64,000 nt of DNA from Methanoregula formicica SMSP. GTDB lineage: Archaea > Halobacteriota > Methanomicrobia > Methanomicrobiales > Methanospirillaceae. Position numbers and translations under genes: made by a program. Below are positions 2,161 through 58,791 of this stretch, in pieces; within the stretch, counting starts at the first letter, position 1, and each line of letters opens with the position of its first letter. Below the pieces are notes generated by a model. That model ran no database searches, was not told where the DNA came from, and was given only the letters and a program-made list of their open reading frames with translations. The stretch is from NCBI RefSeq assembly GCF_000327485.1, contig NC_019943.1, positions 248,001 to 312,000 on the forward strand. Reading direction: 5' to 3'.

Positions 2161-3584
2161 AGGACTCTTCCCTCCTGACCAAAGAATACCGGACCATCGA
2201 GTACGTCTCGGGACCGCTCATCTTTGTCTCCGGCGTCCTTGGCGCATCGTACGGCGAGATTGTGAAGATCACCTTAAAGGACGGCGAGGTCCGGACCGGG
2301 CAGGTTCTCGATATCTCCGAGGAGCATGCGGTTGTCCAGGTCTTCGAGGGCACGCGGGGGATCGATCTTGTCGGGACAACCGCCCGGTTCATTGGCGAGC
2401 CGGCACGGATCACGGTCTCCAAGGACATGCTGGGCCGGATCTTCACGGGCGTGGGAACGCCCCGCGACGGCGGTCCGGAGATCATACCGGAGGCGGTGCT
2501 CGACATTGCCGGTGAGCCAATCAACCCGTCGGCCCGTGACAAGCCCGCGGATTTCATCCAGACCGGGATGTCGGCGATCGATGGCCTCAACACCCTTGTC
2601 CGCGGGCAGAAGCTGCCGATCTTCTCCGGCTCCGGCCTTCCCGCGAGCAAGCTCGCCGCCCAGATCGCCCGGCAGGCAAAGGTCCGGGGCGAGGGCGAGG
2701 AGTTCGCGGTGGTCTTCGTTGCCATGGGGATCACGCACAAAGAAGCCTCGTTCTTCATGCAGGACTTCGAGCGGACCGGGGCGCTCGATCGCGTTGTCTT
2801 CTTCATGAACCTTGCCGACGACCCCACAGTCGAGCGGCTCGCGGCGCCGCGGTGCGGCCTTACGGTTGCAGAGCACCTCGCCTTTGCCCACGATTTACAC
2901 GTGCTCGTGATCTTAACGGATATGATCAACTACTGCGAGGCGCTCCGCGAGATCTCGACCGCCCGCGAGGAGGTGCCGGGCCGGCGCGGGTATCCCGGCT
3001 ACATGTACACCGACCTCGCCTCCATCTACGAACGGGCCGGGCGGCTGAAAGGGAAGAAGGGCTCGATCACGCAGATCCCGATCCTCACGATGCCCGATGA
3101 CGACATCACCCACCCGGTGCCTGACCTCACGGGCTACATCACGGAGGGGCAGATCGTGCTCTCGCGTGACATCTTCCGGCGCGGAGGAGACCCTCCGGTC
3201 GATGCCCTGCCCTGCCTCTCGCGGCTCATGAACCTCGGGATCGGCCCTGGCAAGACCCGCGAGGATCACCGGGGCGTTGCCGACCAGCTCTATGCCAGCT
3301 ATGCGTACGGCCGCGACCTGCGCCGGCTTGTGGCAATCGTGGGCGAGGAAGCGCTCACCGATCTTGACCGGAAATACCTGAAGTTCGCGGATGCCTTCGA
3401 GCGGCAGTTCATCACGCAGGGGGATGAGGACCGGGCTATCGAGACCACGTTTGCGATTGCATGGGACCTCTTCTCGACCCTGCCGGTGGATGAGCTGAAA
3501 CGGATCAAGCGCGAGCACATCGCGAAATATCACCCGGCCGCACAGGAAGTGACTGCGCAGCAGGAGAAGAGCGAAGGGAGCTGA
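2157..3584 (+). CDS. atpB: A-type ATP synthase non-catalytic subunit B (locus 2)
   Basis: Regulatory, non-catalytic partner of subunit A in the A3B3 hexamer, 475 residues, slightly longer than the usual 460. As expected for B subunits there is no Walker A; the equivalent position reads [17 protein letters not shown]. The region [25 protein letters not shown] is the conserved nucleotide-interface segment. It overlaps subunit A by 4 bases and ends just before subunit D, so the genes are one operon. Codon use and GC content match the neighbouring core genes. Confidence 0.97.
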
Positions 3585-3590
3585 GCGGAG

Positions 3591-4268
3591 ATGGAGCAGG
3601 TCAAGCCCACGCGGATGGAGCTGATGAAGAAGAAGGCGCAGATCAAGCTTGCCGAGCAGGGCCGCGACCTGCTGCGGGAGAAGATGGACGCGCTCATCCA
3701 GGAGTTCTTCAAGATCCTCTCCAGCGTATCGGACTCCCGCGACGAGCTTGACCAGATCTCCCGGGCTGCCGATCTTGCGCTGATGATCGCGGCCGCAACC
3801 GATGATCCGGTGACCCTGCGTTCTGCTTCGTTTGCCACCCGGCGTTCCATCACGGTCGGCATCAGCGGCAAGAACATCATGGGCGTGCCTGTCCCGGTCA
3901 TCGAGAAGAAACGCGTGTCCAAGAGCATGCTGGAGCGGGGCTATGGGATTATTGCCACGAGTGCACGGATCGATGAGACGGCCGAGCGGTACGAAGTGGA
4001 GCTCGACCTCCTCATCAAGCTCGCCGAGACCGAGACCGCGATGCGCCGGCTCGGGGCGGAGATCCAGATGAACCGCCGGCGCGTCAACGCGCTCGAACAG
4101 ATCCTGATCCCGGAGCTGAGGAGCCAGGCCAAGTATATCAAGAACGCAATTGAGGAGCGGGAGCGGGAGGATTTGTTCCGGCTCAAGAAGGTGAAGAGCC
4201 TCTTAGAGAAGAAGAAAAAGAAGGTGAGGGAGAAGAAGGTGAAGATGGGAATCCAAGAGTCTGATTGA
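3591..4268 (+). CDS. atpD: A-type ATP synthase central stalk subunit D (locus 2)
   Basis: Long antiparallel coiled-coil rotor subunit, 225 residues, matching the family start (TRMELMKKKAQIKLAEQGRD) and the second helix (NRRRVNALEQILIPEL). The C-terminus is unusually basic, with runs of Lys and Arg such as KKKKKVREKKVK. It closes the plus-strand half of this locus. The subunits I and H needed for the membrane part lie convergently at 6714-9000. Subunits K and E are not visible and, if present, must lie upstream of the window with most of C. Confidence 0.96.
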   Translation: MEQVKPTRMELMKKKAQIKLAEQGRDLLREKMDALIQEFFKILSSVSDSRDELDQISRAADLALMIAAATDDPVTLRSASFATRRSITVGISGKNIMGVPVPVIEKKRVSKSMLERGYGIIATSARIDETAERYEVELDLLIKLAETETAMRRLGAEIQMNRRRVNALEQILIPELRSQAKYIKNAIEEREREDLFRLKKVKSLLEKKKKKVREKKVKMGIQESD

Positions 4269-4382
4269 GACACTTTCATACTGTGGACTGCTATTTTTAT
4301 ATTCGTTAAAATTATGCTTCTTTAACGAGGTACAAAAAAGTATAAAAAAAATCTGATAATGATCAGATATCGAGGATATTGC
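4269..4382 (+). promoter_or_regulatory. AT-rich spacer with probable TATA box before the TcmP gene
   Basis: An abrupt switch to AT-rich sequence follows the subunit D stop. TTTTTATATTC near 4291-4302 could serve as a TATA element. A ribosome-binding site GAGG at 4372-4375 lies 7 bases before ATG 4383. This composition break marks the left edge of the two-gene module inserted between the ATP synthase gene halves. Confidence 0.45.
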
Positions 4383-5513
4383 ATGGAATTAACTGATTTT
4401 TTTGAGGAACAAAGACAGCAATCTTTGATAAAAACTGAGATTGTCCGTAAATATTTTTGGGCGTGGTCAAAGGTAATTATTCCATCAGCAAAAAAATACA
4501 GTGGAAAGATCGCTTACATCGATCTATTTGCTGGTCCTGGGTTTTATGGGGATGGATCAAAATCTACACCGATTCTCATATTAGAGAGAGCAATTCAGGA
4601 ATTTGATTTAAGAAATATGTTAGTCGCGTTGTTTAATGATGCAAATCCTGAGCACGCCACATCATTAGCACGAGCAATCAATTCCTTACCAGGAATTGAG
4701 TCTCTAAAATATCGGCCTACTGTTTGTAATGATGAAGTTGATATTGGCTTTGAAAAGGTCTTCTCCGATAAGAATCTCGTCCCGACACTCCTTTTTCTTG
4801 ATCCTTGGGGTTACAAGGGATTATCCATAGATTTGATAGGATCTGTACTCAAAAACTGGGGGTGTGATTGTATCCTTTTCTTTAATTACAATCGAATACA
4901 GGTCAGCCTCACAAATCCGAAAGTAACTGAACACATGGATGCACTTTTCGGAAAGGAGCGTGCTGAGAAACTGAAGGGTCAATTGGATGCAGTACCTGCT
5001 GAAGAAAAAGAATTGACTATCATTGAGGCAGTGACAGAAGCTCTTCATGATGCAGGTGCAACATACGTCCTACCTTTTTGTTTTAAAGATGACCATCGGC
5101 ATTGTACGAGTCATCATCTAATTCTGGCCACAAAACATCCTCGTGGTTATCAGATAATGAAGGATATTATGGCGAAAGAAAGCTCCAGCGATATTCAGGG
5201 TGTTCCCTCGTTTGAATATAATCCGGCAACAATCAGACAAATGTTACTCTATGAATACTCTCGTCCGATTGAGGATCTTGAAGAGATGTTACTCACAGAA
5301 TTTGCCGGGAAAACACAAACTATGAAAGAAATATTTGAGCAGCATAATGTTGGGAAGCGTTTTGTCAGTCGAAATTATAAGGATGCATTGCTTCATCTTG
5401 AACATCAAGGAAAAATAATTACAAATCCTTCCGCAGAGACCCGTCCTCCAAGAAAAGGTATTCCAACATTTGGAGATAATGTGAAAGTAACATTCCCTCC
5501 TAGAGACAGGTAG
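4383..5513 (+). CDS. tcmP: Three-Cys-motif partner protein TcmP
   Basis: A 376-residue protein matching the TcmP family: N-terminal block [20 protein letters not shown], then DLFAGPG at residues 47-53 and a DPWG motif about 90 residues later. DLFAGPG plus DPWG resembles motifs I and IV of class I SAM-dependent methyltransferases, so a nucleic-acid methyltransferase-like fold is likely; that is inference. I chose ATG 4383 over the upstream ATG 4359 because GAGG lies 7 bases before it and family members begin at this point. The gene is AT-rich compared with the ATP synthase genes, suggesting transfer. It is followed 5 bases later by its usual partner, the DUF5131 protein carrying the three-Cys motif. 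Function is unknown. Confidence 0.85.
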
Positions 5514-6713: not shown

Positions 6714-8651
6714 TCACTCCCCCTTCTTCTCCCCCTCCCCCGCCGGCCGGGCAAACGGCTTGTACGGCACCCCGCCTCCTTCGTAGAACTTGCTGAAGAA
6801 TTCCACGAGATGGAGACGCATCGAGTGGATCGAAGGAGAGAACATCGCAAGCACGATGTTGAGGGCATGCAGCAGGAGGGCAACGATGATGCCGATGATG
6901 GCGATCTCGAATGCCCCGCCAAGCCGGTTGGCAACGATCGCGAGAATGACCGAGGCCATGCCGATTGCCATCAGCCGGGCGTACGAGAGGATGTTCCCTA
7001 CCGTGCTCATCACTTCGATGGTGCCGAAGATCCCGGCCCCCAGAAGGATGAGCGGCAGGGCAACGATGACAAGAGCGATGGCCGGGTACATGGCAACTTC
7101 CGGCAGGAATCCCGCGAGGGTAGTGATCAGGACGATCAGTGCCACGATCATCAGCAGCATGCCGCACTTCTCGTACAGGTGCTTACGTTTCTTCGTGATG
7201 ACCGCGTTCCGGATGCCGATGACGAGACCGAGGAGGACGTGGATGACACCCAGCAGGATCGCGAGTACGAGCATCGGGATCATCGCGTCCACCCGGTTCC
7301 ACGTGATGCCAAGGAAATGGACCGGGTGGAACCAGCCCATGTGCTCGCCGAAATCGCCGAAGAATTCGCCAAAGAGGTAGCCAAAGAAGATGGCCGGGAT
7401 CGATGAGATGATCAGGATGTCGGCAAGGCTCCGGGCAAATGCCATGGCCCGGAACCTGTGCCGGATCACGAGCGCGAAGGCGAGGATGACGAGCCCGTAC
7501 CCGATGTCCCCGACCATGATCCCGAAGAAGAGCGGGAAGAAGATCGCAAGGATGGGGGACGGATCGAGCTCGCGGTACCGCGGCGGTGTGACAAGCTGCA
7601 TGATGAACTCGAACGGTTTCACCCAGAAGGGATTGTCATAAAAGACCGGGGCACTCTCCATGTCCTTCTCGCTTGTCGGAAGCTCGCAGAGGACAACCCG
7701 ACCGCTGAACCGGGCTTTCAGCTCCTGCTGGGTTTTCTTTACGTGTTTTTTGGGGATCCATCCCATGATCACAAACGCATACTCGGACTGCCCGAAGTTC
7801 CGGTACGCCCCGAGTTCGCAGTGGATATTATCGAGATAGGTTTTCAGGACAACGAGCTCCTGGTACCATGTTGCAGAGAAAGCGAGGAGTTCACGGTCGA
7901 TCCGGGCTATCTCGTCCTGGGCCCGGAGCCGGCTGTCCTCGAGAAGGGCATACATCTCGTAGAACGGTCGGCCGGAATATTCCTTTGGCAGGCGGACCTC
8001 GTTCACGTTCACGGAGTAGATGAAGGAGTGGATCTCTTCGGAAAATTTCTTGGGAAAGACCATGATGGCCGCAAGGGTCTCTGCATCGACCGTTGTTGAG
8101 GTCATCTCGAAACGATCACCCGTGATTGCGAGGAGTTCCTTTTTGATCAGGTCCAGGACATCCTTGTGCTCCTGCTGGATGAGGAGGATCGTGACCTCGA
8201 AGCCTTCGAGCACGGGGAGTTCCTTTTCGATCGGCTGGATGATGTCGAGGACCTTCTCGTACCGGTTCAGGTTTGTTACCGAGAGCACGAGTTCGCCTTT
8301 CTTTGCCGCAAGCTCCCGTGTCGTCGTCTCGAGCGTGTGGATGATCTCGCGGCTCCGGGCAAGGATCTCCTTGTAGGTCATTGACGAAAGGGAAGCCCTC
8401 AGCGCATCCTGGGCGGTTTCATCGTCTGCGGTAATTGGAAGGGTTGAGAGGATTGCGCTGATGGTGGCAAGGACCGAGGAGACTTCTGCCGTCTCCTCCT
8501 GCCGCACGCTGTCAAGGCGGATCTCCTCCTTTGAGACAAGCTCGGTTGCTTTCTCAAGGTGGACCGTGCCTGCCTGGTACAGGAAATCCACTACCTGCCC
8601 GAGATCCTCCCGGGGTCCGACCACCTGGATCCGTTTCATCGCTTGGAGCAT
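6714..8651 (-). CDS. atpI: A-type ATP synthase membrane subunit I (locus 2)
   Basis: The a-like stator and ion-channel subunit of the Ao domain, 645 residues. The N-terminal half is a cytoplasmic dumbbell of mixed helices and coiled coil. The C-terminal half has about eight membrane helices, starting around LAIFFPLFFGIMVGDIGYGL, with the conserved segment VGNILSYARLMAIGMASV that contains the essential Arg. The start at 8651 has GGAGGG a few bases upstream. The gene is the last of a minus-strand group with subunit H and a 65-residue protein, and is convergent with the F-A-B-D half. It is clearly diverged from the second subunit I at 59297-61324. Confidence 0.95.
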   Translation of the reverse strand: MLQAMKRIQVVGPREDLGQVVDFLYQAGTVHLEKATELVSKEEIRLDSVRQEETAEVSSVLATISAILSTLPITADDETAQDALRASLSSMTYKEILARSREIIHTLETTTRELAAKKGELVLSVTNLNRYEKVLDIIQPIEKELPVLEGFEVTILLIQQEHKDVLDLIKKELLAITGDRFEMTSTTVDAETLAAIMVFPKKFSEEIHSFIYSVNVNEVRLPKEYSGRPFYEMYALLEDSRLRAQDEIARIDRELLAFSATWYQELVVLKTYLDNIHCELGAYRNFGQSEYAFVIMGWIPKKHVKKTQQELKARFSGRVVLCELPTSEKDMESAPVFYDNPFWVKPFEFIMQLVTPPRYRELDPSPILAIFFPLFFGIMVGDIGYGLVILAFALVIRHRFRAMAFARSLADILIISSIPAIFFGYLFGEFFGDFGEHMGWFHPVHFLGITWNRVDAMIPMLVLAILLGVIHVLLGLVIGIRNAVITKKRKHLYEKCGMLLMIVALIVLITTLAGFLPEVAMYPAIALVIVALPLILLGAGIFGTIEVMSTVGNILSYARLMAIGMASVILAIVANRLGGAFEIAIIGIIVALLLHALNIVLAMFSPSIHSMRLHLVEFFSKFYEGGGVPYKPFARPAGEGEKKGE

Positions 8652-8676
8652 ACGGCCCTCCTGTCCCTTGTGCCCC

Positions 8677-9000
8677 TCACTGCTCCCCGGTCACGTACCT
8701 AACGATCGCATCGGCAGCAGCGGGAATGTTTTTCTCCGCCCGGGCTATTGCCGCGGCGGTATCCTGCTCTGCTGCCCTCTTCAGCTCTGCGATCTCGGTC
8801 TCGGTCCTCCCCCGTTCCGTCCAGTAGACCTTTTCCGCGGAAGTCTTTGCCAGGCTCTCAGCCGTGCAGACGAGATCATCGGCCTCGCTCTGTGCTGCAG
8901 CGATCATCGCGGCGGCGTTTTTTCTCGTCCCCTCGATCCGGGATCCCAGTTCCTGCTCTTTGTCCCGGATCTGCTGCAGGAGCGTCCGTTCGGTATCCAT
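8677..9000 (-). CDS. atpH: A-type ATP synthase peripheral stalk subunit H/G (locus 2)
   Basis: A 107-residue, almost wholly helical Ala/Glu/Arg-rich protein with coiled-coil pattern (RDKEQELGSRIEGTRKNAAAMIAAAQSEAD). Length and pattern fit subunit H (G in V-type nomenclature), which pairs with subunit E to make the peripheral stalks. It sits 25 bases before atpI, the same H-I order as in the canonical operon at 58981. The primary sequence is barely conserved in this family, so the call rests on length, composition and position. Confidence 0.85.
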   Translation of the reverse strand: MDTERTLLQQIRDKEQELGSRIEGTRKNAAAMIAAAQSEADDLVCTAESLAKTSAEKVYWTERGRTETEIAELKRAAEQDTAAAIARAEKNIPAAADAIVRYVTGEQ

Positions 9001-9013
9001 CTCCCCTTCCCCG

Positions 9014-9211
9014 TTATAGTCCGTGCTTCCGTTTCAGGATCGAGGTCACCCCGCACGAGGGTCTCTGTGCAGGAGACGACTCGTTATCGCCCTGCTCCCC
9101 GGTCCGTAAAAGTCCCTTCGCCTTCAGTGCTGCATCCTCAATCCGCTTGCGGCAGCGCCCGACTGCCGCGTCCTGCAGTGCACCGATCGTTTTCATGAGG
9201 TCCTGTGCCAC
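9014..9211 (-). CDS. Small protein of unknown function leading the atpH-atpI group
   Basis: A 65-residue protein (MAQDLMKTIGALQDAAVGRC...) ending SILKRKHGL. I chose GTG 9211 because GGAGGTG at 9217-9223 lies 5 bases upstream and a TATA box at 9261-9268 would place the transcript start near 9235. Upstream in-frame ATGs at 9256 and 9319 would lie beside or beyond the TATA box. It is the first gene of the minus-strand group and ends 13 bases before atpH. The N-terminal part looks helical and amphipathic (VGRCRKRIEDAALKAKGLL), which could suit a stalk-associated or assembly role; that is inference. I do not recognise a family. Confidence 0.6.
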   Translation of the reverse strand: MAQDLMKTIGALQDAAVGRCRKRIEDAALKAKGLLRTGEQGDNESSPAQRPSCGVTSILKRKHGL

Positions 9212-9258
9212 ACCAGCACCTCCTTCGGAAATGATCAATTGCCTATACCGTGCCATGG

Positions 9259-9272
9259 GGATATAAACCTTG
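9259..9272 (-). promoter_or_regulatory. TATA box for the locus 2 atpH-atpI group
   Basis: On the minus strand this reads AAGGTTTATATCC. It lies about 50 bases before the GTG start at 9211, leaving room for a leader of roughly 25 bases with a strong ribosome-binding site. The divergent DUF1646 gene begins at 9386. Confidence 0.55.
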
Positions 9273-9385
9273 TTGAAGCTCTTCTGTCCATGGCCAATGG
9301 ACGGTAATTCATTAAACATCCTGGGTCAGATGTATAATCATCAACGGGCAGACCGCCCTCCTGATCGGTTTTTTGGAGAGAGAAC

Positions 9386-10504
9386 ATGGACATGCTGGCA
9401 AACGTTGGGCTTCTCATCATCTTTATACTCGTGCTCATCCTCCCGTTCCGGGTGAAATATATCGAGTGTAATCTCGAAGCATTCCTCTTTGTCTGTGGTG
9501 TCGCAGCGCTGACCCTTTCCGGGTTCATCACCCTTCCCGGGGAGCAGACCGGCTGGAGCATCGCGATCGTTGAGGAGGCGCTCTTCTCCTCGCTGAACAT
9601 CGCAAGCATCTGGGGCATCCCTGTCGGGATCGTCCAGATCGTCCTCCTCTTCGGTCTCCTGATCTACTTCTTCCACCACCGTATGCAGGAAGCGATTGTC
9701 GGTATGGTTGACCGGATCCCGCTGAAATGGATAGTCTTTCTCCTCATCGTCGGGCTCGGCCTGGTTTCAAGCATCATCTCCGCAATCCTTGCCGCGATCA
9801 TCCTGGTCGAGATCGTCAACGCCCTGCCGATCGTGCAGAAGGCCAAGGTGGAGGTGACCGTTGTCTCCTGTTTCTCCATCGGCCTCGGGGCGGGCCTTAC
9901 CCCCTTAGGGGAACCCCTGTCCACGATCGTTGTCTCGAAACTCTCGGGCGCCCCGTATTATGCCGGGTTCACCTTCCTCTTCGACCGGCTGGCCCTCTTC
10001 ATCATCCCGGCCGTCCTTGCGCTCGGGGTCGTCGGGGTGGTCCTCTTCTCCCGGAGCCACACCGGCAATGAGAAACTTGAATGTATCGTCCAGCGCGAGT
10101 CGCTCAGAGAGATCTTCCTCCGGGCCGGCAAGGTGTATCTCTTCATCATGGCCCTTGTCTTCCTGGGGGAGGGGTTCAAGCCGCTGATCCTCCAGTATAT
10201 CATCAGCATCCCGTCAGCCGGCCTGTACTGGATCAACATTGTCTCAGCAGTCCTTGACAACGCGACCCTTGCCGCAGCAGAGATCAGCCCGGCGCTCTCC
10301 GCCCAGCAGATCACAAGTGCTCTCATGGGCCTGCTCATTGCCGGCGGGATGCTCATCCCCGGGAATATCCCCAACATCATCGCGGCCTGCAAGCTGGGGA
10401 TCACCAGCAGCGAGTGGGCAAGGATCGGCGTCCCTCTCGGCCTTGCGCTGATGGCAGTCTTCTTTGCCATCCTCTTTGTCCCGGCCTGGCTTGGCTTTGC
10501 GTGA
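9386..10504 (+). CDS. DUF1646 family membrane protein, predicted cation transporter/antiporter
   Basis: A 372-residue integral membrane protein with about ten helices and no signal peptide. It carries the two landmark motifs of the DUF1646/COG4756 family: GAGLTPLGEPLSTIVVSKL about residues 170-188 and SAVLDNATLAAAEISP about residues 285-300. These are paired re-entrant-like loops as in ion-transporter superfamily members. It is annotated elsewhere as a putative sodium:proton antiporter, but the substrate is not established. GGAGAG precedes the start, and TGTATAATC near 9330 is a plausible TATA. It is divergent from the locus 2 ATP synthase group, which fits a shared role in ion-gradient handling (inference). 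Confidence 0.8.
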   Translation: MDMLANVGLLIIFILVLILPFRVKYIECNLEAFLFVCGVAALTLSGFITLPGEQTGWSIAIVEEALFSSLNIASIWGIPVGIVQIVLLFGLLIYFFHHRMQEAIVGMVDRIPLKWIVFLLIVGLGLVSSIISAILAAIILVEIVNALPIVQKAKVEVTVVSCFSIGLGAGLTPLGEPLSTIVVSKLSGAPYYAGFTFLFDRLALFIIPAVLALGVVGVVLFSRSHTGNEKLECIVQRESLREIFLRAGKVYLFIMALVFLGEGFKPLILQYIISIPSAGLYWINIVSAVLDNATLAAAEISPALSAQQITSALMGLLIAGGMLIPGNIPNIIAACKLGITSSEWARIGVPLGLALMAVFFAILFVPAWLGFA

Positions 10505-10520
10505 TATTCATGAGGGTGGA

Positions 10521-11075
10521 ATGCCCAGATCAATGATACCTATGAGCGATGCAGGCGGGAACATGGCGGTGGCAGAGAAGGTTGAACAGGAGATTGCACG
10601 ATTGTCCGATCCCTCCCTTGATGTCCGCCACGCTGCTGTTGCGGCCCTCCAGGAGATCGGGGAGCCGGCGGTTGTCCCGCTTCTTAAGGAACTTGCGGAA
10701 GCAGGAGACAATGACCGGCGCTGGTACGCAGCGGTTGCCCTCTCCCGGATCGGTGTTCCCGCCATCGCACCGCTCATTGAAGCCATGAAGGCCAACCCGG
10801 CGCAGGCATTCCGGCGCTATGGTGCAGCAGCACTGGGGGAGATGGGGGCAAAAGCTGTTACTCCGCTCATCGATGCCATGGCGTCCGATGAGGCAGAGCT
10901 CCGTGGTTTTCTTTCGCAGGCGCTCTGCCGGATTGGCACCCCCGCCATCGAGCCCCTGCGGCAGCGGCTGCATGATGCGGACGAGATTGTCCGGTCATGT
11001 GCCACGCTCACGCTCTGGAAGCTGGGCGAGGCGGGCGTGCCGGTCATTGTTGAAGACGCCAGAAAAGAAGACTAA
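10521..11075 (+). CDS. HEAT-repeat protein
   Basis: A 184-residue soluble protein made of four to five HEAT/PBS-lyase-like repeats of about 30 residues, each with the pattern VRHAAVAALQEIGEPAVVPLLKEL. Such repeats form helical scaffolds for protein-protein contacts. I chose ATG 10521 because GAGG at 10512-10515 lies 5 bases upstream; other in-frame ATGs follow close by. It starts 16 bases after the DUF1646 gene and is probably co-transcribed. The partner protein is unknown. Confidence 0.85.
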   Translation: MPRSMIPMSDAGGNMAVAEKVEQEIARLSDPSLDVRHAAVAALQEIGEPAVVPLLKELAEAGDNDRRWYAAVALSRIGVPAIAPLIEAMKANPAQAFRRYGAAALGEMGAKAVTPLIDAMASDEAELRGFLSQALCRIGTPAIEPLRQRLHDADEIVRSCATLTLWKLGEAGVPVIVEDARKED

Positions 11076-11126
11076 AGAAGGTTAAGGGAATTGTGCCCCG
11101 GGGGATCCGGGGCAGGGCCAATAGTT

Positions 11127-50596: not shown

Positions 50597-52525
50597 ATGC
50601 TTCGGAACTACATCTCCCAGTGGATTAAGCGCGATCCAGTCCGGTTCACGAGTCTCCATGCCGACATGATCTCCGCCCGGATTGGGATGACAACGGAACA
50701 GTACGTCTGGCGTGCGGTCCAGGTCTCCCTCCTTGCCGGGATCGCCTTTGCCGCGCTCGGCTTTGTTGCCAGCCTCTCCTTCACCCTGCCCTCCCTGGAA
50801 GGCCGGATCGGCATCACCAATGTCTTCGGGCTGCAGCTGCCGGCCTTCTTCAGTGGCCAGGTGCCTGCGTTTGTCATCGCCGTCGCCGTTCTCGTCTTTT
50901 CGTTTGCAATCGGCATGTATCTCGGGTACGCCCTCCTGATGAGGTTACCCGGCATCGAGAAGACGAACCGGGCGATCAAGATCAACCTGACCCTCCACAA
51001 CGCGGTTGCGTATATGTACGCCATGCGAAAAGGTGGGGCCCAGCTGATGCCCATCTTCCAATCCATCTCGGAGCGTGCGGATATCTACGGCGAGGTTGCC
51101 CTGGAGTTCCGCCAGATCGTCCGGGACGCGGACTTCTTCGGGTACGATGTCGTCACGGCGATCCGGCACCTTTCCGAGACAACGCCATCGGAGAAACTCA
51201 AGCTATTCTTGGAGGATCTCCTCTCCATCATCGATGGCGGCGGGGACATGGGAGAGTTCCTCTCCATGAGGGTTCGGATGTACCAGGAAGAAGCACGTTT
51301 CGAGCAGAAACAATTCCTGAACGTCCTCTCGCTCGTTGCCGAAGGCTACGTCACGCTCTTTGTTGCCGGCCCGCTCTTTCTCATCATCATCATGGTCGTG
51401 ATGGGGATGACCGGCGGCACCGCCGTCCTCCAGCTCTCGCTTGTCACGTACGCGATCCTGCCCATCGGGTCACTGATATTCATCGTCCTCATCGACCTGA
51501 TCTCCATCAAGGCCGAGAAGACGGAACGGTACACCACCATCAAGTGGCTGCATGCCTACCCGGACATCACCATCGTCAAAAAGGAGGACGAGGCACACCA
51601 GTTCGAGCAGCTGAAAAAGTACGACCGCATACGGACCATTGCCGATCATATCCGCCACCCCCTTGAGAGCTTCATCACCAATGTCGACCACACGCTGTAC
51701 ATCACCGTTCCGATAGCGATCCTGTACATCACCTCGGTGTTCCTCCGGGTTCCCCTGTACCGGGACGTCGATGTCTATCTCGGTGTTGTCGATGATCATA
51801 TTGTCCTTGCCCTGCTCATCATCCTCATCCCGTATGCCATCTTTTACGAGATCTGGTCGCGGAAAGTCCTCGGCATCCAGTCCCTTGTCCCCGATTTCCT
51901 CGAGCGGCTTTCCGGCATCAACCAGGTCGGCCTCACTATCGCCCAAGCCATCGCGATCATGGTGAATACTAACCTCGGGCTGCTCAGCTACGAGATCCGG
52001 CGGATTAAACGGGACATGGACTGGGGGGCAAATTTCACCGAGGCGCTGGTACGCTTCGAGCAGCGGGTCAGCACGCCGGCAATCGCCCGGACTGTTACGC
52101 TGATCACCAAGGCAAGCGAGATGAGCGGCCAGATCAGCGAGGTGCTCTCGATCGCATCGAGCGATGCGAAGATGAGTGAAGCCCTGAAAAAAGAGCGGCT
52201 CACGGAGATGTTCATCTATACGGCAATCGTGTACCTGTCGTTCTTTGTCTTTCTCTTTGTCGTTGCGGTCCTAACCATGCAGTTTCTTCCCATCCTTGCC
52301 GATATCGATACCCAGGGGCTCTCCACTGCGGGATCCATCTCAAGCTTCGGGTCTATCCCTCTTGCAACGTTTGCCCGTATCCTGTACCATGCGTGCCTCA
52401 TGCAGGCGCTCTTTTCCGGCCTGATCGCCGGACAGATGGGGGAGTCGTCCGTTGCCGCGGGAGTCAAGCATTCCTGCGTGCTCCTGATCATCGCGCTCGT
52501 GACCTTCAACTTCGTCCTCATCTGA
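50597..52525 (+). CDS. Archaeal type IV pilus membrane platform protein (TadC/FlaJ family)
   Basis: A 642-residue polytopic membrane protein with the duplicated GspF/TadC arrangement. The first cytoplasmic bundle contains NAVAYMYAMRKGGAQLMPIFQSISERADIYGE and the second SGINQVGLTIAQAIAIMVNTNLGLL and MSGQISEVL. About nine helices separate and follow them. It forms the membrane base on which the ATPase acts. The gene starts 2 bases after the ATPase stop, an obligate pairing. It is longer than FlaJ, as in non-archaellum archaeal pili. Confidence 0.92.
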   Translation: MLRNYISQWIKRDPVRFTSLHADMISARIGMTTEQYVWRAVQVSLLAGIAFAALGFVASLSFTLPSLEGRIGITNVFGLQLPAFFSGQVPAFVIAVAVLVFSFAIGMYLGYALLMRLPGIEKTNRAIKINLTLHNAVAYMYAMRKGGAQLMPIFQSISERADIYGEVALEFRQIVRDADFFGYDVVTAIRHLSETTPSEKLKLFLEDLLSIIDGGGDMGEFLSMRVRMYQEEARFEQKQFLNVLSLVAEGYVTLFVAGPLFLIIIMVVMGMTGGTAVLQLSLVTYAILPIGSLIFIVLIDLISIKAEKTERYTTIKWLHAYPDITIVKKEDEAHQFEQLKKYDRIRTIADHIRHPLESFITNVDHTLYITVPIAILYITSVFLRVPLYRDVDVYLGVVDDHIVLALLIILIPYAIFYEIWSRKVLGIQSLVPDFLERLSGINQVGLTIAQAIAIMVNTNLGLLSYEIRRIKRDMDWGANFTEALVRFEQRVSTPAIARTVTLITKASEMSGQISEVLSIASSDAKMSEALKKERLTEMFIYTAIVYLSFFVFLFVVAVLTMQFLPILADIDTQGLSTAGSISSFGSIPLATFARILYHACLMQALFSGLIAGQMGESSVAAGVKHSCVLLIIALVTFNFVLI

Positions 52526-52753
52526 TGCGGATTTTATCCCTGGCTTTTGCTGACAGTGCCATTCAGGTCAAACCCGGCTCGTTCGAGATGGTGTGATGAA
52601 TCGAATCGTCCTGATCTGATGTATCCACTTTTTTTGTTTATCCTTTTCCGGATGCAAGTCAGGTATTGTCTTACGATCGATTCCCAACCATGAGAAATAA
52701 TGCAGTTTTTTACCATGAACCGGGCCGAAGTAAAATAGAAAAAAGTGACCGTG

Positions 52754-54792
52754 TTATCCTTTGGTTGTCGCGGTCTGGTTATCAATGATGTTGATGACCT
52801 TCGGGGCAACAGAGGATGCTGTCACAGCTGTGGAGCCGGGAACCGTGCAGACCGCACCCAGAATGTTTCCACCACCGGGGCCGATGACTGAAATCTTCAT
52901 CTGGTTGGGCCTGATGAATGCGACATGGTACGTTTCGTATCCGGTACCGATATTCCATTCCCGGTAATCCGGATCGATGAAATCGTTCGGGTTCACGGCT
53001 AGGGTGGACACTCCGATGTACGATGAGTATTCGTACACGGAACATGAAGTGACAGCATTGTAGTCCAGCTGATCGCTGAACGCAGGCTGGATCCAGCCAT
53101 CTGACCCGAGAGTTGTATACATCCCGAGATCGCTTCCGAGAAGCGCGTTGTTATACGCCGGCAGGCCATTCGGGCCGTTGTAAACATCAATAACACGCTC
53201 AAGCCAGTAATTGCCGGGCGGTGTTGTTTGCTTGAACGTGGCGGAGATGGTGTGGTCTGCAGTAACTGGAGGGAATGTGTATGGGTTTTGTGTAACCGCT
53301 GAATTATCAACAAGGATCTGGTCAATAATATAGCCCGAGTCCGGTGTGATCGTAAATGATGGTGTAGTTTCAACCGGAGTGGAAACAGAGCCTGCAGGAG
53401 AGATAGATCCTCCCGGACCAGCACTCGAAGTAATCGTGTAGGTATATCTTGGTCGTACATAGGTGTTCATTGCCCCATCCCAGCTGCCGAAAGTGATATA
53501 CTTATGCGGGTCGTTCTGCCATGTTGTATATACTTCGATATTTTGTGCGGAAAGCCAGCTGTCATAACCATAGCCGACAACTGCATAACTGTGTCCCCAG
53601 AACGATAAGGTAGAGGGGTTTATTGAAAATACAGATAATTCAAATGGTCTGTTGGCATCGATTTCGCTTTGTATCATCGGCCAACTAAGAAGTGTATTGA
53701 CCGCACTCGACGAGATGTAGGAGGGATACCCGTTATCAAGAGTGACACGGTTTATACCATAGGCAATCATCCACGGCCATGTCCATCCCTCTTGTCCGAG
53801 GAAGGGGCCGGTCCCCATCGCAGTAGCTAATGCTTGGTTTAATGGATCTCCATTAGGTAGACGTGTGGTAGTATTAATCCCATTATCATCAGGTAACCGT
53901 GTCAGACCGAGATTACGCCAGTACCCTAGAACCATTGCAGCAGATGTTGGGGAACACCCATGTTCCCAATAAAATATGGAACATCGGATATGGTTTTCTG
54001 GTAGTTATACGATGCAGATGCGGAAGCAGATTTACTTGTTGCAGCTGACGCGGCAGCAGTAGCCTTATCAAGACTATTCCATGCAGCAAGTGCATCCTGT
54101 TTCCGGTAATTCAGGTTCTGGGTGATATTCTGTTCATCCAGCCCGATATTTACAAGGTTTGCAGATGATATACTCTGGGATGCCGATTTTACTGTACTAT
54201 CATGAGATACGACTTGATTTTCATTCAGGTCAACGAGAATGGTATCTTGTGTGCCCGGGACGTTGTTTTTTAATACCCCGGTTTTCTGGACCGGATACTG
54301 CATGAGATAGAAACTTCCCCCCAGATAGACTGGTTTTCCTTCGCCAAGCGTTGCCTGCCGGGATACTGCCGTAGCAGCGGCAAGTGATTTTGCGGCATTT
54401 TGTGTTGGGATTTCACTGTTCGGAGTTTTTCCTTTCGAGAATTCAAGAACCGGGTAATTTTCCCGCGTGGCAGAAATTATTATATAACCATCATATTGTC
54501 CGTTTGCCAGGACATCGAAGGAATATGCAGAATATTTCCCGGCCAGGTCGTAATACGTAGTCTCTTTTTCCACAGACGCTCCTTTCCAGTCAGCGAATTC
54601 CGGATTCGACGATGAGATTGTATTTACGAATTGTGTTGCAACGGATGTCGCCTGATCAATACTGACAAAATTTGGATCGGAACTGCCCTTTGCGGATACC
54701 GCAGCATCCGGTGCAGCGTTCGCAAACGGTACGATAACCATCGATGCCAGCAGGAATGCCAGCAGGGCGATGGCCGGTTTTATCTGTTTCAT
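52754..54792 (-). pseudogene. Secreted papain-like (C10/C39-type) cysteine protease, frameshifted at the active site
   Basis: Two frames together make one protein of about 680 residues. Frame 1 (54792 to 53926) has a signal peptide, then a C10/FTP-like propeptide region (SIDQATSVATQFVNTI, YDGYIIISATRENYPVLEFSKGK) and reads on to DVPYFIGNMG. The family's catalytic motif GCSPTSAAMVLGYW then continues in another frame from about 53956, the frame whose first ATG is 53935. Next come the His motif WGHSYAVVGYGYD, a bacterial-repeat beta domain (SSAGPGGSISPAG...ISATF) and a C-terminal region. One base missing before the TGT Cys codon explains it. Gene loss, assembly indel and programmed frameshift are all possible. 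GGAGGT precedes ATG 54792. Confidence 0.82.
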
Positions 54793-55262
54793 GTTGTTTT
54801 ACCTCCATCTTTTTTCCTGGAGGCATGATCCAAATCTTCATACCTGCAGAAGATACTTGTATCATGCCACTACGGCAGGAGGGGTTTCATCATCTGTTCT
54901 CAGGCAGGTGAACACCCTCCTTCCCGGTTGTACTGATTTGATTTTTTTTCTTATTTTATCAGATTTCTAATAATAATCGATCTGTGGCTTAACTATACAT
55001 ATTTTATTATTTTGTTACGTATAAGTCGAGTGGAACAATGCAATATGACAGAATCTAAAATATTTTATATATCCCTCTATTGAGATATCTCTCTCGTAAG
55101 AAATGCTGTAATAAAACAAGGATTGTCTCAAGACATAGTTCGGGATCGATCGGGCCTTCAGTGTGCCGACCGGTCCGATCGTGTTCATAGACTTGTATGA
55201 AAAATAACAAAAAATTTATGACGAGATCAAATATACTATGATTCATAATGATGGTGGATTGA
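54793..55262. other. AT-rich intergenic region, no gene seen
   Basis: 470 bases between the divergent protease pseudogene and the first copy of a secreted protein family. AT-rich with several TATA-like stretches (for example around 55000-55015 and 55060-55075). The last 30 bases before 55263, including ATTCATAATGA, recur before the third copy at about 57180. Confidence 0.5.
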
Positions 55263-56066
55263 ATGAGATATAACGGATGGATCCTGATACTGTTGATTAT
55301 CGTGACTCTTTCCTGCACTATTCAGATTGTATCAGCTGAACCACCAATTCCCGAAGGCAGGCCCGGATATCTTCTCCCTTTCCATTCTCCTTATGCCAAT
55401 CAATCATTTGAAAAGATCTGTGAAAACGGAAATTGCTTATCTGTTACTGATGTCTATCCAACCAACTGGTCTTTCCGTTCACCACCGTTCTTTCTCAATA
55501 TGTCAAAATACCATGCTTTCATGAATATTTCATCTGATAGTGGAGATAAGTATATATCTGAAATATGGTATTTTAATGACTGGGATGAATTCAGTCATGG
55601 GAGAGAACAGATTCTTCAGTACCTGAACCGGTCCGGTACGGTTTCCAACATCACCCTTGATTTTAATGAAACATATGCCAGTACTAACAATTCTTTTATC
55701 GAAGGATTCAAAATCCGACAGATAGATGTAATTCAATACAACAGTAATTCCACTTCAGGATATTTCATCATCTTTGGTTCGTATTATTTTCCGGGTCCGA
55801 ATTATTATATTGCCTACTATGGAGTTGTTGGATCATCCGACATTGGGGAGCAATCCTCCCGGCTGAAAAGGATAATGATCATTGTGCCACAGTTTATGAA
55901 TAGCAGCCGTTCAAATGTTGTGAATCCCGAAGTGCCACTGGCATCACTGCCCGATGCTCCGATTCCGCTCCCTGTTCTGGTAACGCTTGTTGAGCTGGTC
56001 ACCTCTATAGCGGTAATTGCTGCGATGATAGCCATCTTCGTTAGCAGGTTACTGAAGAAACGCTAG
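55263..56066 (+). CDS. Secreted/anchored hypothetical protein, paralogue 1
   Basis: A 267-residue exported protein with signal peptide MRYNGWILILLIIVTLSCTIQIVSA, many N-glycosylation sequons (NQS, NWS, NMS, NIS, NRS, NIT, NET, NNS, NST) and a C-terminal membrane helix (VTLVELVTSIAVIAAMIAIFVSRLLKKR). The central part has ISEIWYFNDWDEFSHGREQILQYLNRSG, SNITLDF and GYFIIFGSYYFPGPNYYIAYYGVVGSSD, all shared with the next gene. I recognise no family. AT-rich compared with core genes. Confidence 0.72.
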   Translation: MRYNGWILILLIIVTLSCTIQIVSAEPPIPEGRPGYLLPFHSPYANQSFEKICENGNCLSVTDVYPTNWSFRSPPFFLNMSKYHAFMNISSDSGDKYISEIWYFNDWDEFSHGREQILQYLNRSGTVSNITLDFNETYASTNNSFIEGFKIRQIDVIQYNSNSTSGYFIIFGSYYFPGPNYYIAYYGVVGSSDIGEQSSRLKRIMIIVPQFMNSSRSNVVNPEVPLASLPDAPIPLPVLVTLVELVTSIAVIAAMIAIFVSRLLKKR

Positions 56067-56276
56067 TCACAAAGCAGTGGTTGCATAATATTCTCTATTA
56101 AGCTGGCTTGGGGTTATCGTTTTGAAAAAAATCACCCCTGTTTTGACGGTTCTGTTGCGTTATCGGGACTTGCACTTCGTCCTCATTGGAAACAGGCTAT
56201 TATTTAAACGTCCCGTAAAGGCAACAGGTTCATTGTGTATTATTATAAAATATACCGTGCGATACAGGTGGGATGA

Positions 56277-57068
56277 ATGCGCTATAACAGATCGATCCTG
56301 ATAGTTCTGATTATCCTGGCACTTTCCAGTTGTATCCAGGGAGCCTTTGCCGGGGCTCCGCCATATTATGATCGACCTACCTTTTTTATCCCACGCGATT
56401 TCACGCCGTATGTCAACCAGTCCGAGGAAAACTGTACCGTTACCGATGCATATCCCCCCATTCAGACACAACCTTCGGTTCTTACAATTCCCCCGGATAT
56501 GTCCGACAGCGCCCCTGATATATCCGACAGTCCGCCACCATTCTTTCCTGATCTGTCCCAAGATTATGCATTAAGGAATATGTCCTGTAACAAGACCAAT
56601 GACAGGTTTATAGCTATCATGTGGTATTTCAACAAATGGGAGACTTTCAAGGAACAGCGGGAACGCCTCTTTACATATTTATCCCAACATGGTTCGATGT
56701 CGAATGTAACCCTGACTTTTGCGGAAGCACGGTCTGTATTGGACAACACGACATCAGGAAAACTCACGATCCGGCATATCAACGTAATTAAATACGACAG
56801 CATGAATACTTCGGGATACTTTGCAATATTCAATTCCGGTTACTTTCCCGGGCCAAACTATTTTATTGCTTATTATGGGATCATCGGATCCTCAGATGTA
56901 GATGATTATCTCCCCAATCTGGAGTCGTTCCTCGCCACCGGCTATTCTGACGATCAATTTAATCCTGTAGTGCCAATGGCCACACCAACGATTCCCGTCC
57001 CGACAGTAATTCCCTTCGGGGCCGTTGCAATCGTTGTAATGATCAGAAAAATCCGCGGGAACCATTGA
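56277..57068 (+). CDS. Secreted/anchored hypothetical protein, paralogue 2
   Basis: A 263-residue paralogue of the preceding gene: the same MRYN-type signal peptide (MRYNRSILIVLIILALSSC), a Pro/Asp/Ser-rich insert (residues about 60-90), IAIMWYFNKWETFKEQRERLFTYLSQHG, SNVTLTF and GYFAIFNSGYFPGPNYFIAYYGIIGSSD, and a C-terminal hydrophobic helix with RKIRGNH. Several N-glycosylation sites. The upstream 40 bases also resemble those of paralogues 1 and 3, so promoter and gene were duplicated together. Confidence 0.72.
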   Translation: MRYNRSILIVLIILALSSCIQGAFAGAPPYYDRPTFFIPRDFTPYVNQSEENCTVTDAYPPIQTQPSVLTIPPDMSDSAPDISDSPPPFFPDLSQDYALRNMSCNKTNDRFIAIMWYFNKWETFKEQRERLFTYLSQHGSMSNVTLTFAEARSVLDNTTSGKLTIRHINVIKYDSMNTSGYFAIFNSGYFPGPNYFIAYYGIIGSSDVDDYLPNLESFLATGYSDDQFNPVVPMATPTIPVPTVIPFGAVAIVVMIRKIRGNH

Positions 57069-57202
57069 ATCTCGTTTTTTCACCGGATTACATGAAAAAA
57101 ATATGCATTTATTCTGATGGTGTGATATAATGGTTTATCAAACGATAATCCAATCAAAAAACGAAATCAAATATACAATGATTCATAATGACGGTGGGAT
57201 AA

Positions 57203-57902
57203 ATGCGTTATAACAGATCGATCCTGATACTCCTGATTATCCTGGCACTTTCCTGTTGTATCCAGGGAGCCCTTGTCGAGGCCGGGGCCCCGCCTTATCC
57301 CCGCATGAGTTCTTCAACATAGGATTGATACAGAATTTCTAAAAACCCCCCCGGACCTTGATTTAACCACTTCAAGTAATATTGACAACTACACTCCATT
57401 TTTCGTTATGATTCACGGAGACCGACTGATACCAGATAGAACCACCAATAAAATTTATCAGATGGAAAAAAGGATCAGAATTACCCCCTCAAAGCCAGAC
57501 TTTTCTCTCGTTAATACATTGTATCCAATCGGAAATGGGTCCCTGATCGTCCCAAAATATAATTTTACCTGGGAGAGCCCACGGATAAGAGATATTCAAA
57601 ACACGAATATCCATTATATTCCCCGGAAAATTCCAGAAAAAACGGCGATATTTGCCCGATATAATGCATCTGATAAAACACGTGTATCCGTCTCCTTCTC
57701 ACTTCAGGGACGAAACACCTGGAAGCAGGGGTATGATGACTGGGTAGGAAATACTTATTCAGAATTTTTCTCAGGATATTACACCGGGCCGCAAAGCGGA
57801 TGGAGATCTATTCACGGGGAGATGCAATTGCTGGATGGAATATATCCGAATCCCGCACATCCCGAGTGGCAGAAAACCCTGAACCGGACCGGGAATAATT
57901 AG
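57203..57902 (+). pseudogene. Third copy: shared signal peptide fused by frameshift to an unrelated secreted domain
   Basis: From 57203 the first 35 codons are nearly identical to paralogue 2 (MRYNRSILILLIILALSCC...), but the frame stops at 57320-57322. A second frame is open from about 57309 to 57902 and reads like real coding sequence (TEFLKTPPDLDLTTSSNIDNYTPFFVMIHGDRLIP), ending with an N-glycosylated region (NFT, NAS, NRT). One frameshift near 57303-57311 would join them into a protein of about 230 residues. The second part does not resemble paralogues 1 and 2. If the frameshift is real, the segment from ATG 57408 may still be translated but lacks a signal peptide. Confidence 0.6.
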
Positions 57903-58160
57903 AAACCACTTGAAATGAGAGCGCTTGTGAAAACCCCGAACCCAAAAATTTTCCAAGCCGTTAATACTGGTAATCCTCGTTCTGCTTTTGCAACTCATTA
58001 CGGCCAGATGTATTACTGATCTGGATCCACGGATGTTTTTTCCAATTACGGTTATGGTATCAAAATTCAAGCGAATAATTCAATACGGGAATTGCTGGGT
58101 GGGGATTTTCAGATAGTTTTAATTTCTCGCGGTGAGGATGACCTATTGAGGTGAACGAAC

Positions 58161-58319
58161 GTGTGTACTGTTGGTGGCGGCCCCACCGGTGACCTGAATT
58201 TCGACGAGAGGGTAAAGGGGAAGAACTACCGTTGCAATGACTGTGGCGAAAAGTTCGAGAGCGTCAGCAAGAAACCCATCTGTTCCAGCTGCCAGTCTGA
58301 TAATGTGACGGCAATCTGA
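58161..58319 (+). CDS. Small C4 zinc-ribbon protein
   Basis: A 52-residue protein starting at GTG 58161, with GAGGTGA at 58148-58154 six bases upstream. The sequence VCTVGGGPTGDLNFDERVKG leads into YRCNDCGEKFE and ICSSCQSDNV, a four-Cys zinc ribbon of rubredoxin-like spacing. It lies 4 bases before the next gene and should be co-translated with it. Such ribbons often mediate protein or nucleic-acid contacts. Function unknown. Confidence 0.75.
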   Translation: MCTVGGGPTGDLNFDERVKGKNYRCNDCGEKFESVSKKPICSSCQSDNVTAI

Positions 58320-58323
58320 TACT

Positions 58324-58791
58324 ATGATCGTGCCGCTCAAGGATGAGTTCCTGCTCATCTCCGGCACCCGTTCTTTTCTCCTGGCTGCCAAAGCAAACGC
58401 CCTCTTTGCTATCCGTATCGAGACTCCTGATAAAGAATACAGCCAGACCATCGAGCCTTCGGATATCATCGTAGTCTCGGCTCCGGAAGGAGGAGCATTG
58501 GAGCCGGCCTTCATGCTCACCGAATTCGTCAGGACGTACCGTATGCCCCTGATCGTCCTGCCAAAGGACCACCCGGGCTCGAAACGGTTCTCGTACCTGG
58601 TGTGTGTCGGGCCGCTCATCACCACCAATTGCTCTATCCGGCGGGGAACCCATCCGGAGCAGCACCTGGTCTGCTCCAGCGACGAGCTTGCAGGGATCAC
58701 TCTCAAGGCCCATTCCGAGGGTGTTGAGATCGTGGACCTCCCGGAAGGTGCCACGCACCGGTATGTCAATTTCCGGGTATTAACCGGTTAA
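58324..58791 (+). CDS. Conserved hypothetical protein next to the ATP synthase operon
   Basis: A 155-residue soluble protein of mixed strand/helix pattern (MIVPLKDEFLLISGTRSFLLAAKANALFAIRI...). It has no Cys cluster, signal peptide or membrane helix. Segments EPSDIIVVSAPEGGALEPAFMLTEFVR and MPLIVLPKDHPGSKRF look well ordered and conserved-type. It is preceded by the small zinc ribbon gene (4-base gap) and followed by the ATP synthase promoter. I do not recognise the family. Confidence 0.65.
   Translation: MIVPLKDEFLLISGTRSFLLAAKANALFAIRIETPDKEYSQTIEPSDIIVVSAPEGGALEPAFMLTEFVRTYRMPLIVLPKDHPGSKRFSYLVCVGPLITTNCSIRRGTHPEQHLVCSSDELAGITLKAHSEGVEIVDLPEGATHRYVNFRVLTG

Follow-up and report, generated by a model that had tools for sequence, protein, structure and literature searches.

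Three similar leaders in a probably acquired, decaying peptidase-partner module of Methanoregula formicica SMSP

Methanoregula formicica SMSP is a hydrogenotrophic methanogen whose complete genome was sequenced by 454 and Illumina technologies and finished (PMC4155587). The genome consists of a single contig of 2,820,858 bp, and the stretch analysed here, called the window throughout, comprises its bases 248001-312000, that is 64,000 nt, with positions counted from the first base of the stretch. The subject of the analysis is an insert of about 5.6 kb in this window (52526..58108, not assigned to a strand), which is seen only in this genome and which carries a broken gene for a C39-like cysteine peptidase, two intact genes (open reading frames ORF1 and ORF2) for secreted proteins of what we call the partner family, and a third copy of their 5′ end joined out of frame to a different domain. 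The genome collections used for comparison hold one genome per species.

Leaders and genes of the insert

Three register-matched copies of a leader, about 105 nt each, start at 55221, 56235 and 57161. Each of them comprises a TATA-like box (as we take this motif to be), a GGTGG element, a 5′ untranslated region and a signal peptide opening with MRYN, with start codons at 55263, 56277 and 57203, respectively. Specifically, on the plus strand, copy 1 extends over 55221..55337, with the presumed box at about 55228-55236, GGTGG and the signal peptide from 55263, copy 2 over 56235..56366 and copy 3 over 57161..57298. In blastn comparisons copy 3 is 84% identical to copy 1 over 95 nt and 87% identical to copy 2 over 106 nt, and copies 1 and 2 share 80% over 61 nt. 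Across 80 nt spanning the start codon (-20 to +59) the leader pairs have 55, 63 and 67 bases in common, against a mean of 22.9 and a maximum of 43 for random ATG-ATG pairs of the window (n=200,000). The similarity is beyond chance, and the three copies that a first-pass annotation of this DNA had described at these start codons are borne out. The annotation had also given all three the same upstream sequence; in fact the resemblance there is uneven, copies 1 and 3 being close, with identity at 36 of the 42 positions from -42 to -1, and copy 2 having diverged upstream of the start, where it has a 5-nt gap. The pair most alike within the signal peptide is that of copies 2 and 3.

The first reading had proposed, as a check, to look for the 5′ cassette elsewhere. 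When copy 3 was run against the DNA of the whole genome no fourth copy came up, the matches other than the three copies being two of 18 nt (E 0.9). A genus-wide search with a region of 2,116 bases in 39 genomes, 38 of them other than this one, gave no leader match; it is a weak search, with seven candidates per genome scored, and it also failed to list the leader-to-leader matches of the genome itself. When the three leaders were compared by blastn with the collected loci, matches (E<=0.01) came from own-genome loci only. An Rfam scan of 52400-58400 gave no family at gathering score, and bacterial promoter and terminator scans remained at chance level, the models being bacterial and unsuited to an archaeal host.

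Copies 1 and 2 lead into ORF1 (55263..56066, plus strand, 267 aa) and ORF2 (56277..57068, plus strand, 263 aa). These are paralogues with 41% identity overall (E 2.7e-44) and 44% in the mature part; both have a signal peptide and, by eye, a C-terminal hydrophobic segment with basic residues after it, and they contain 10 and 8 N-x-S/T sequons, respectively, in agreement with the glycoprotein-like domains proposed for them at first. Pfam holds nothing for either up to E 1 and NCBIfam no model above cut-off, one NCBIfam match to ORF1 (E 0.13) being taken as chance; Pfam, NCBIfam and PADLOC together offered nothing useful for ORF1, ORF2, the domain joined to copy 3 or the homologues examined, and a PDB sequence search with the partner profile gave matches of E 0.5 or worse only. 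The family is not confined to the insert: a profile search (E<=1e-6) finds it in 37 of the 232 genomes of the order, with further members in this genome. In a tree of 14 members, ORF1, ORF2 and proteins of Methanoregula and Methanomicrobiaceae metagenome-assembled genomes (MAGs) form one unresolved clade, in which ORF2 sits on a branch of 1.04. As the two proteins share this clade with other taxa and ORF2 lies on a long branch, their mature domains would be old; a recent duplication as their origin was ruled out, synonymous sites being saturated in the body of the genes.

The third copy has a different fate. Its reading frame (57203..57322, plus strand), apparently the signal peptide of a third paralogue, stops at a TAG (57320-57322) after 39 codons, and the frame one base out of step is open over 57309-57902 and unrelated to ORF1 and ORF2. 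In other words, the frameshift and the junction to a different secreted domain noticed in the first reading of the sequence are both present. The downstream domain (57324..57902, plus strand) corresponds to a lipoprotein-like secreted family from residue ~77 through the C-terminus, with 37% identity to a lipoprotein of L126 (6983-7786), a locus in a Methanomicrobiaceae MAG (presumably G220); the first ~76 residues of the family are absent from copy 3 and present in the L126 protein. Members of this family have lipoprotein-like signal peptides and include, besides the L126 homologue, paralogues at ~1.795 Mb of the same genome. Further downstream, 57943..58116 (plus strand) contains a signal peptide and a DPRMF-like start only. 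A second lipoprotein gene has probably left a remnant here, at the right end of the insert, though this is less certain: its tblastn match to the N-termini of the family (48% over 27 aa, 25.8 bits, partly a hydrophobic match) exceeds the maximum of 19.2 bits in 60 shuffles. The structure model of the lipoprotein was poor, with a predicted local distance difference test score (pLDDT) of 41.7 and a predicted template modelling score (pTM) of 0.42. At locus L191, two lipoproteins of the copy-3 family stand in tandem (1497-2327 and 2324-3145, both minus strand) and are identical in their last 19 residues; they adjoin a gene for a 671-aa secreted protein (3336-5351, plus strand) with the C-terminal module of the peptidase described below. 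Matches to the lipoprotein and to this module also lie near each other in G028:C32 and G005:C18.

On the opposite strand, two overlapping frames between 54792 and 52754 represent one gene, as the homologue in G041 is a single frame of 717 aa. The 5′ part (53926..54792, minus strand) encodes a signal peptide and a Spi-like prodomain, the latter a weak Pfam match to Inhibitor_I69 (E 8e-4, below cut-off), and the 3′ part (52754..53935, minus strand) the rest of the catalytic domain, an InlB-type B-repeat and a C-terminal domain. In the 3′ part Flg_new_2 is above the Pfam cut-off and Peptidase_C39_2 (PF13529) reaches 16.1 bits, below its cut-off of 24, which four intact homologues exceed with 40.6-78.9 bits. 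The frame shift falls directly ahead of the conserved GCSPTSAAMVLGYW, which carries the presumed catalytic Cys; C284, H424 and D444, presumably the active-site residues, are invariant in a six-row alignment of the peptidases. Intact homologues measure 682-717 aa, among them two uninterrupted own-genome proteins of 682 and 708 aa. NCBIfam gave no match to the peptidase at E 0.01 and a PDB sequence search with its profile nothing up to E 0.1; a PADLOC CARF match to the L126 peptidase (E 0.0019) was judged spurious.

All three leaders fall inside the insert, whose GC content is 44% compared with 55% for the window, and which is flanked by two conserved genes. To its left lies a gene for a membrane protein that we take to be FlaJ/TadC-like (50597..52525, plus strand), conserved and preceding the homologues of the right-hand genes in relatives. 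To its right lie a small conserved gene with CxxC motifs (58161..58319, plus strand), Zn-ribbon-like by eye, and a conserved gene for 155 aa (58324..58791, plus strand), located upstream of what are presumably A-type ATPase genes and found in 37 of the 39 genomes of the genus, this one included. The homology of relatives stops at ~52519 and picks up again at 58108-58137. A typical relative has the flaJ-like gene, then ~250 nt with the small CxxC gene in between, then the homologue of the 58324 gene: in 21 of 29 relatives' loci the spacing is 227-279 nt and in G027 it is 891 nt, compared with ~5.8 kb in the window, the flaJ-like gene being visible in 22 of the 29 and not found within the examined flank in the other 7. 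Insert genes were found at this site in none of the 29 (E<=1e-3), and likewise in none of 11 longer relatives' loci, of which only that of G001 is additional to the 29. The site comparison thus covers 30 relatives, with both flanks seen together in 23; six further relatives with the 58324 gene lie outside it. None of the insert genes has a match in the 891-nt gap of G027 (L071:1947-2838).

Pairing of peptidase and partner genes in the order

Profile searches of both families in the 232 genomes, with a cut-off of E<=1e-20 for the peptidase catalytic domain and at most five candidates per genome scored, yielded at least 16 peptidase loci, six of which had supplied the profile. A partner-family gene adjoins the peptidase at 13 of these 16 loci, one of the remaining three (G030) being at a contig end and two (G218 and G221) having no such neighbour; a rough estimate of the pairing expected by chance is 0.006 per peptidase. 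The paired loci comprise four of this genome (the insert and those at 1.155, 1.172 and 1.523 Mb) and those of G220, G041, G023, G184, G179, G169, G052, G170 and G180, the peptidase being a fragment in the last two. At 11 of the 13 loci the partner comes directly after the peptidase and is read in the same direction; in G220 it precedes the peptidase, again in the same direction, and the insert has the two genes divergent and 470 nt apart. In particular, L126 contains in a row a lipoprotein (6980-7786, minus strand), a partner (7980-8810, plus strand) and an intact peptidase (9042-11090, plus strand). What the insert contains, down to the family of the foreign domain of copy 3, therefore occurs side by side elsewhere as well.

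Viewed from the partner family, the association is incomplete. Of 16 partner loci of another genus, g27, 3 have a long peptidase upstream, 6 a fragment (in one case a match of 36 aa) and 7 none that was detected, in a check that spanned ~1.5 kb and excluded longer family members of 671-726 aa and one piece of 120 aa. Partners are thus often found with no complete peptidase, and the insert, with ORF1 and ORF2 whole and its peptidase gene disrupted, is one such case. G041 (L113:1870-11184) carries an intact peptidase of 717 aa followed by five tandem partners, which fall into two subgroups and each have a longer hydrophobic C-terminal region. At the two loci with no partner neighbour (G218, L197:1966-3204; G221, L198:2056-3273), the next gene downstream encodes in both cases a membrane-protein-like product of 376-377 aa.

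In the literature searched, which comprised open-licence papers only, the pairing of peptidase and partner was not found; nor was any paper found on a Methanoregula cysteine peptidase or, judging by title, on point for gene conversion of archaeal surface proteins, and literature on methanogen secreted peptidases and archaeosortase contained no mention of "C39 peptidase" among the matches listed. To our knowledge, the secreted peptidases of methanogens and self-protection from them have been little studied.

Recombination between leaders

The leaders of ORF1 and ORF2 are better conserved than their bodies at sites that do not alter the protein. Specifically, the first 24 codons have 8 synonymous differences at 18 sites and the rest 118 at 146 sites (rounded; p 0.0016), and within the leaders the synonymous divergence (dS) is 0.16 between copies 2 and 3 and 0.74 between copies 1 and 2. 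Moreover, copy 3 has the aspect of a mosaic, as its informative sites side 10:2 with copy 1 upstream and 11:2 with copy 2 in the signal peptide (gapped count, p 0.0012); an ungapped count (p 5e-5) was dropped, the 5-nt gap of copy 2 having inflated the value. The contrast between leader and body, together with the mosaic, therefore fits recombination between neighbouring leaders, and we consider it fairly probable, from these sequence patterns, that recombination or conversion among the tandem copies has homogenised them.

The five-copy array of G041 shows the pattern in milder form: its signal-peptide region is 80-93% identical in all 10 pairs and the next ~620 nt are 72-74% identical in the 6 between-subgroup pairs. 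Two peptidase paralogues of the genome itself (L189:1274-3400 and L190:1661-3709, at ~1.156 and 1.172 Mb, ~16 kb apart) show it more strongly. They are 94% identical in the first 100 columns; identity then falls to 46-86% for 1,500 columns (46-82% for the first 1,400 of these, 86-100% beyond them) and rises to 95-100% in the final ~540, which looks like segmental gene conversion. Arrays of tandem paralogues are known whose ends are homogenised and which include chimeric pseudogenes, and the insert resembles them in its similar 5′ ends, divergent bodies and single deletion chimera; it differs in having three copies only and a chimera that joins two different families.

Decay of the module and possible role of the partner

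On balance we favour the reading that the insert is an acquired and decaying peptidase-partner module, whose leaders have been homogenised by recombination and whose copy 3 is a pseudogene born of a deletion fusion. Its anatomy and decay are the part held with high confidence; the composite as a whole is somewhat better than an even prospect. The ancestral module would have comprised a secreted C39-like cysteine peptidase, tandem secreted and membrane-anchored partners (ORF1, ORF2 and a lost third one) and one or two lipoproteins. Recombination or conversion would have kept the leaders alike from promoter to signal peptide, on mature domains that are presumably old. The third paralogue would have stood at the leader of copy 3, adjoining a lipoprotein gene, and a deletion beginning immediately behind the signal peptide and reaching codon 77 or so of that gene would have left the out-of-frame pseudogene. 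A deletion explains copy 3, given the frame shift at the joint, the loss of the first ~76 residues and the occurrence of the lipoprotein beside the module elsewhere; every piece that it calls for is visible in the sequence, and no swap machinery is needed. The partners would be exposed on the outside of the cell membrane and would work with, or on, the adjacent peptidase, most plausibly by restraining it or protecting the cell.

The first-pass annotation had instead seen cassette-driven diversification of surface proteins, that is, a mobile or recombining 5′ cassette lending its promoter and signal peptide to different domains. Three leaders, one of them attached to a different domain, the mosaic leader and the five-paralogue array of G041 with its conserved leaders all speak in favour, and the signs of recombination between leaders have stood. 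The functional diversity has not: the sole new joint is out of frame and truncated, no further leader was found in the genome, the family of the joined domain neighbours the module in L126 and the leader divergence is not recent. Silent donor copies, as expected of a phase-variable or switching cassette, were likewise lacking in the genome-wide DNA search, and rapid switching is not suggested because the leaders diverge by a dS of 0.16 (2/3) and 0.74 (1/2). We accordingly regard this cassette as quite improbable. The likeness of the leaders could, by another account, be due to strong purifying selection on promoter and signal peptide with no recombination involved, and a signal-peptide motif, SC.IQIV.A, is indeed common to ORF1 and the homologue in G009, another species. 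Against it, synonymous sites are conserved too (8 of 18 different in the leader, 118 of 146 in the body), copies 1 and 3 are alike at 36 of 42 upstream positions, and the leader DNA of other family members in the collected loci shows no such likeness; we regard this account as unlikely. About as unlikely is the reading in which neither copy 3 nor the peptidase gene is broken, the breaks being genome errors or bridged by programmed frameshifting and copy 3 making a short secreted chimera. Beyond copy 3 the frame runs open from 57324 for 192 codons and retains 37% identity to its family, and at both breaks the two frames overlap; yet the genome was finished from 454 and Illumina data (PMC4155587), ~76 N-terminal residues of the family are absent from copy 3, and two separate breaks plus a likely gene stump in one insert fit decay, which is preferred over programmed frameshifting as the simpler explanation.

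As for the role of the partner, known systems offer comparisons. The C10 proteases of Bacteroides fragilis have staphostatin-like Bfi proteins as neighbours, two in the case of bfp1, and genomic insertions carry two of the four protease genes (PMC2873492). As in Bfp/Bfi, the gene of a secreted papain-fold peptidase here directly adjoins genes for exported partners; the differences are a peptidase that Pfam classes as C39-like, an archaeal host and a larger partner with a C-terminal hydrophobic segment, whose model gave no recognised inhibitor fold among the matches listed. In common with the staphostatin/Bfi (I57-like) proteins, the partner gene stands beside that of a secreted cysteine peptidase, at 13 of the 16 peptidase loci. 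In the SpeB-Spi and staphopain-staphostatin pairs (PMC2873492, PMC7863939), a peptidase likewise goes with a protein encoded by its neighbour, and a weak Spi-like prodomain is present here. The difference is that the Spi-like part lies inside the peptidase and the neighbour belongs to an unrelated family with no Pfam match.

The ORF1 model, built from six sequences, has a mixed alpha/beta fold (pLDDT 71 and pTM 0.77 for residues 26-230, with residues 1-23 and 41-50 unreliable), with weak fold matches of other kinds than the lipocalin-like beta-barrel of staphostatin/Bfi. A second structure comparison (VIA) gave its first ranks mostly to accessory domains such as those of PA94, EagT6, SciW, DcrB, LpqN, Mog1 and PsbP, with Z 4.6-6.3, the best being 6.3 over 111 residues at 4.3 A, and kinases mixed in from rank 17 on. 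We take these proteins to represent a Mog1/PsbP-like superfamily, and Z values of this size may reflect merely a common arrangement.

The gene pairing, the exported and anchored partners and the occurrence of lone partners suggest that the partner guards the cell surface against the peptidase or controls it, as proposed for the Bfi proteins; that it restrains or inhibits the enzyme outright is possible, though doubtful. A role as substrate, membrane anchor or secretion helper, with no restraint, appears comparably tentative: among the weak fold matches are chaperones of secretion and accessory proteins of the envelope (EagT6, DcrB, LpqN, PsbP), a Mog1/PsbP-like fold would suit a helper, and in G041 five partner genes accompany a single peptidase gene. 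The survival of partner genes at loci with a fragmentary or undetected peptidase is, however, less expected of a devoted substrate or anchor. More speculative still, and rather unlikely, is the broader proposal of a transferable, peptidase-immunity-like module in Methanomicrobiales, made up of a secreted C39-like cysteine peptidase and a membrane-anchored partner of a new family, in which the partner would protect the producer, multiply in tandem under shared and recombining leaders and outlive its peptidase.

Several observations pull against the acquired, decaying module and the guarding role of its partners. No mobile-element genes were recognised by eye among the listed open reading frames, and in a scan of 52350-58300 for direct and inverted repeats no pair brackets the insert. 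Because neither a mobile gene nor bracketing direct repeats are seen, acquisition is argued from absence in relatives and low GC, and loss in the relatives instead is not formally excluded. Faster or lineage-specific upstream change in copy 2 alone could mimic the mosaic, the contrast between leader and body in G041 is present but weaker, and the frame breaks could be sequencing errors. Moreover, a weaker peptidase match in G024 (E 7.5e-11) has no partner in the examined flank, and partner genes occur, for example in G009, G026, G027 and G028, with no peptidase match within ~1.5 kb; the partner would therefore have other roles or have lost its peptidase there. Finally, Foldseek returned nothing at E<=1e-3 for the ORF1 model, its best rows being protein kinases at E 0.035 and worse, and no recognised inhibitor fold appears among the structure matches listed, which excludes nothing.

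Under the module reading, a striking repeat can stem from ordinary tandem duplication, conversion and deletion, and the comparisons suggest that the lasting interest of the locus lies in the peptidase-partner pairing, an enzyme-and-partner system over a surface-protein shuffling cassette. The recurring pair, with tandem partners in one genome and lone ones in others, provides testable pairs in a cultured archaeon. In G009, in addition, runs of genes that overlap or lie close together (L111:29-3423 and L110:14824-19902) encode secreted proteins from different families with similar C-terminal tails of PAPLPA type, possibly a sorting signal.

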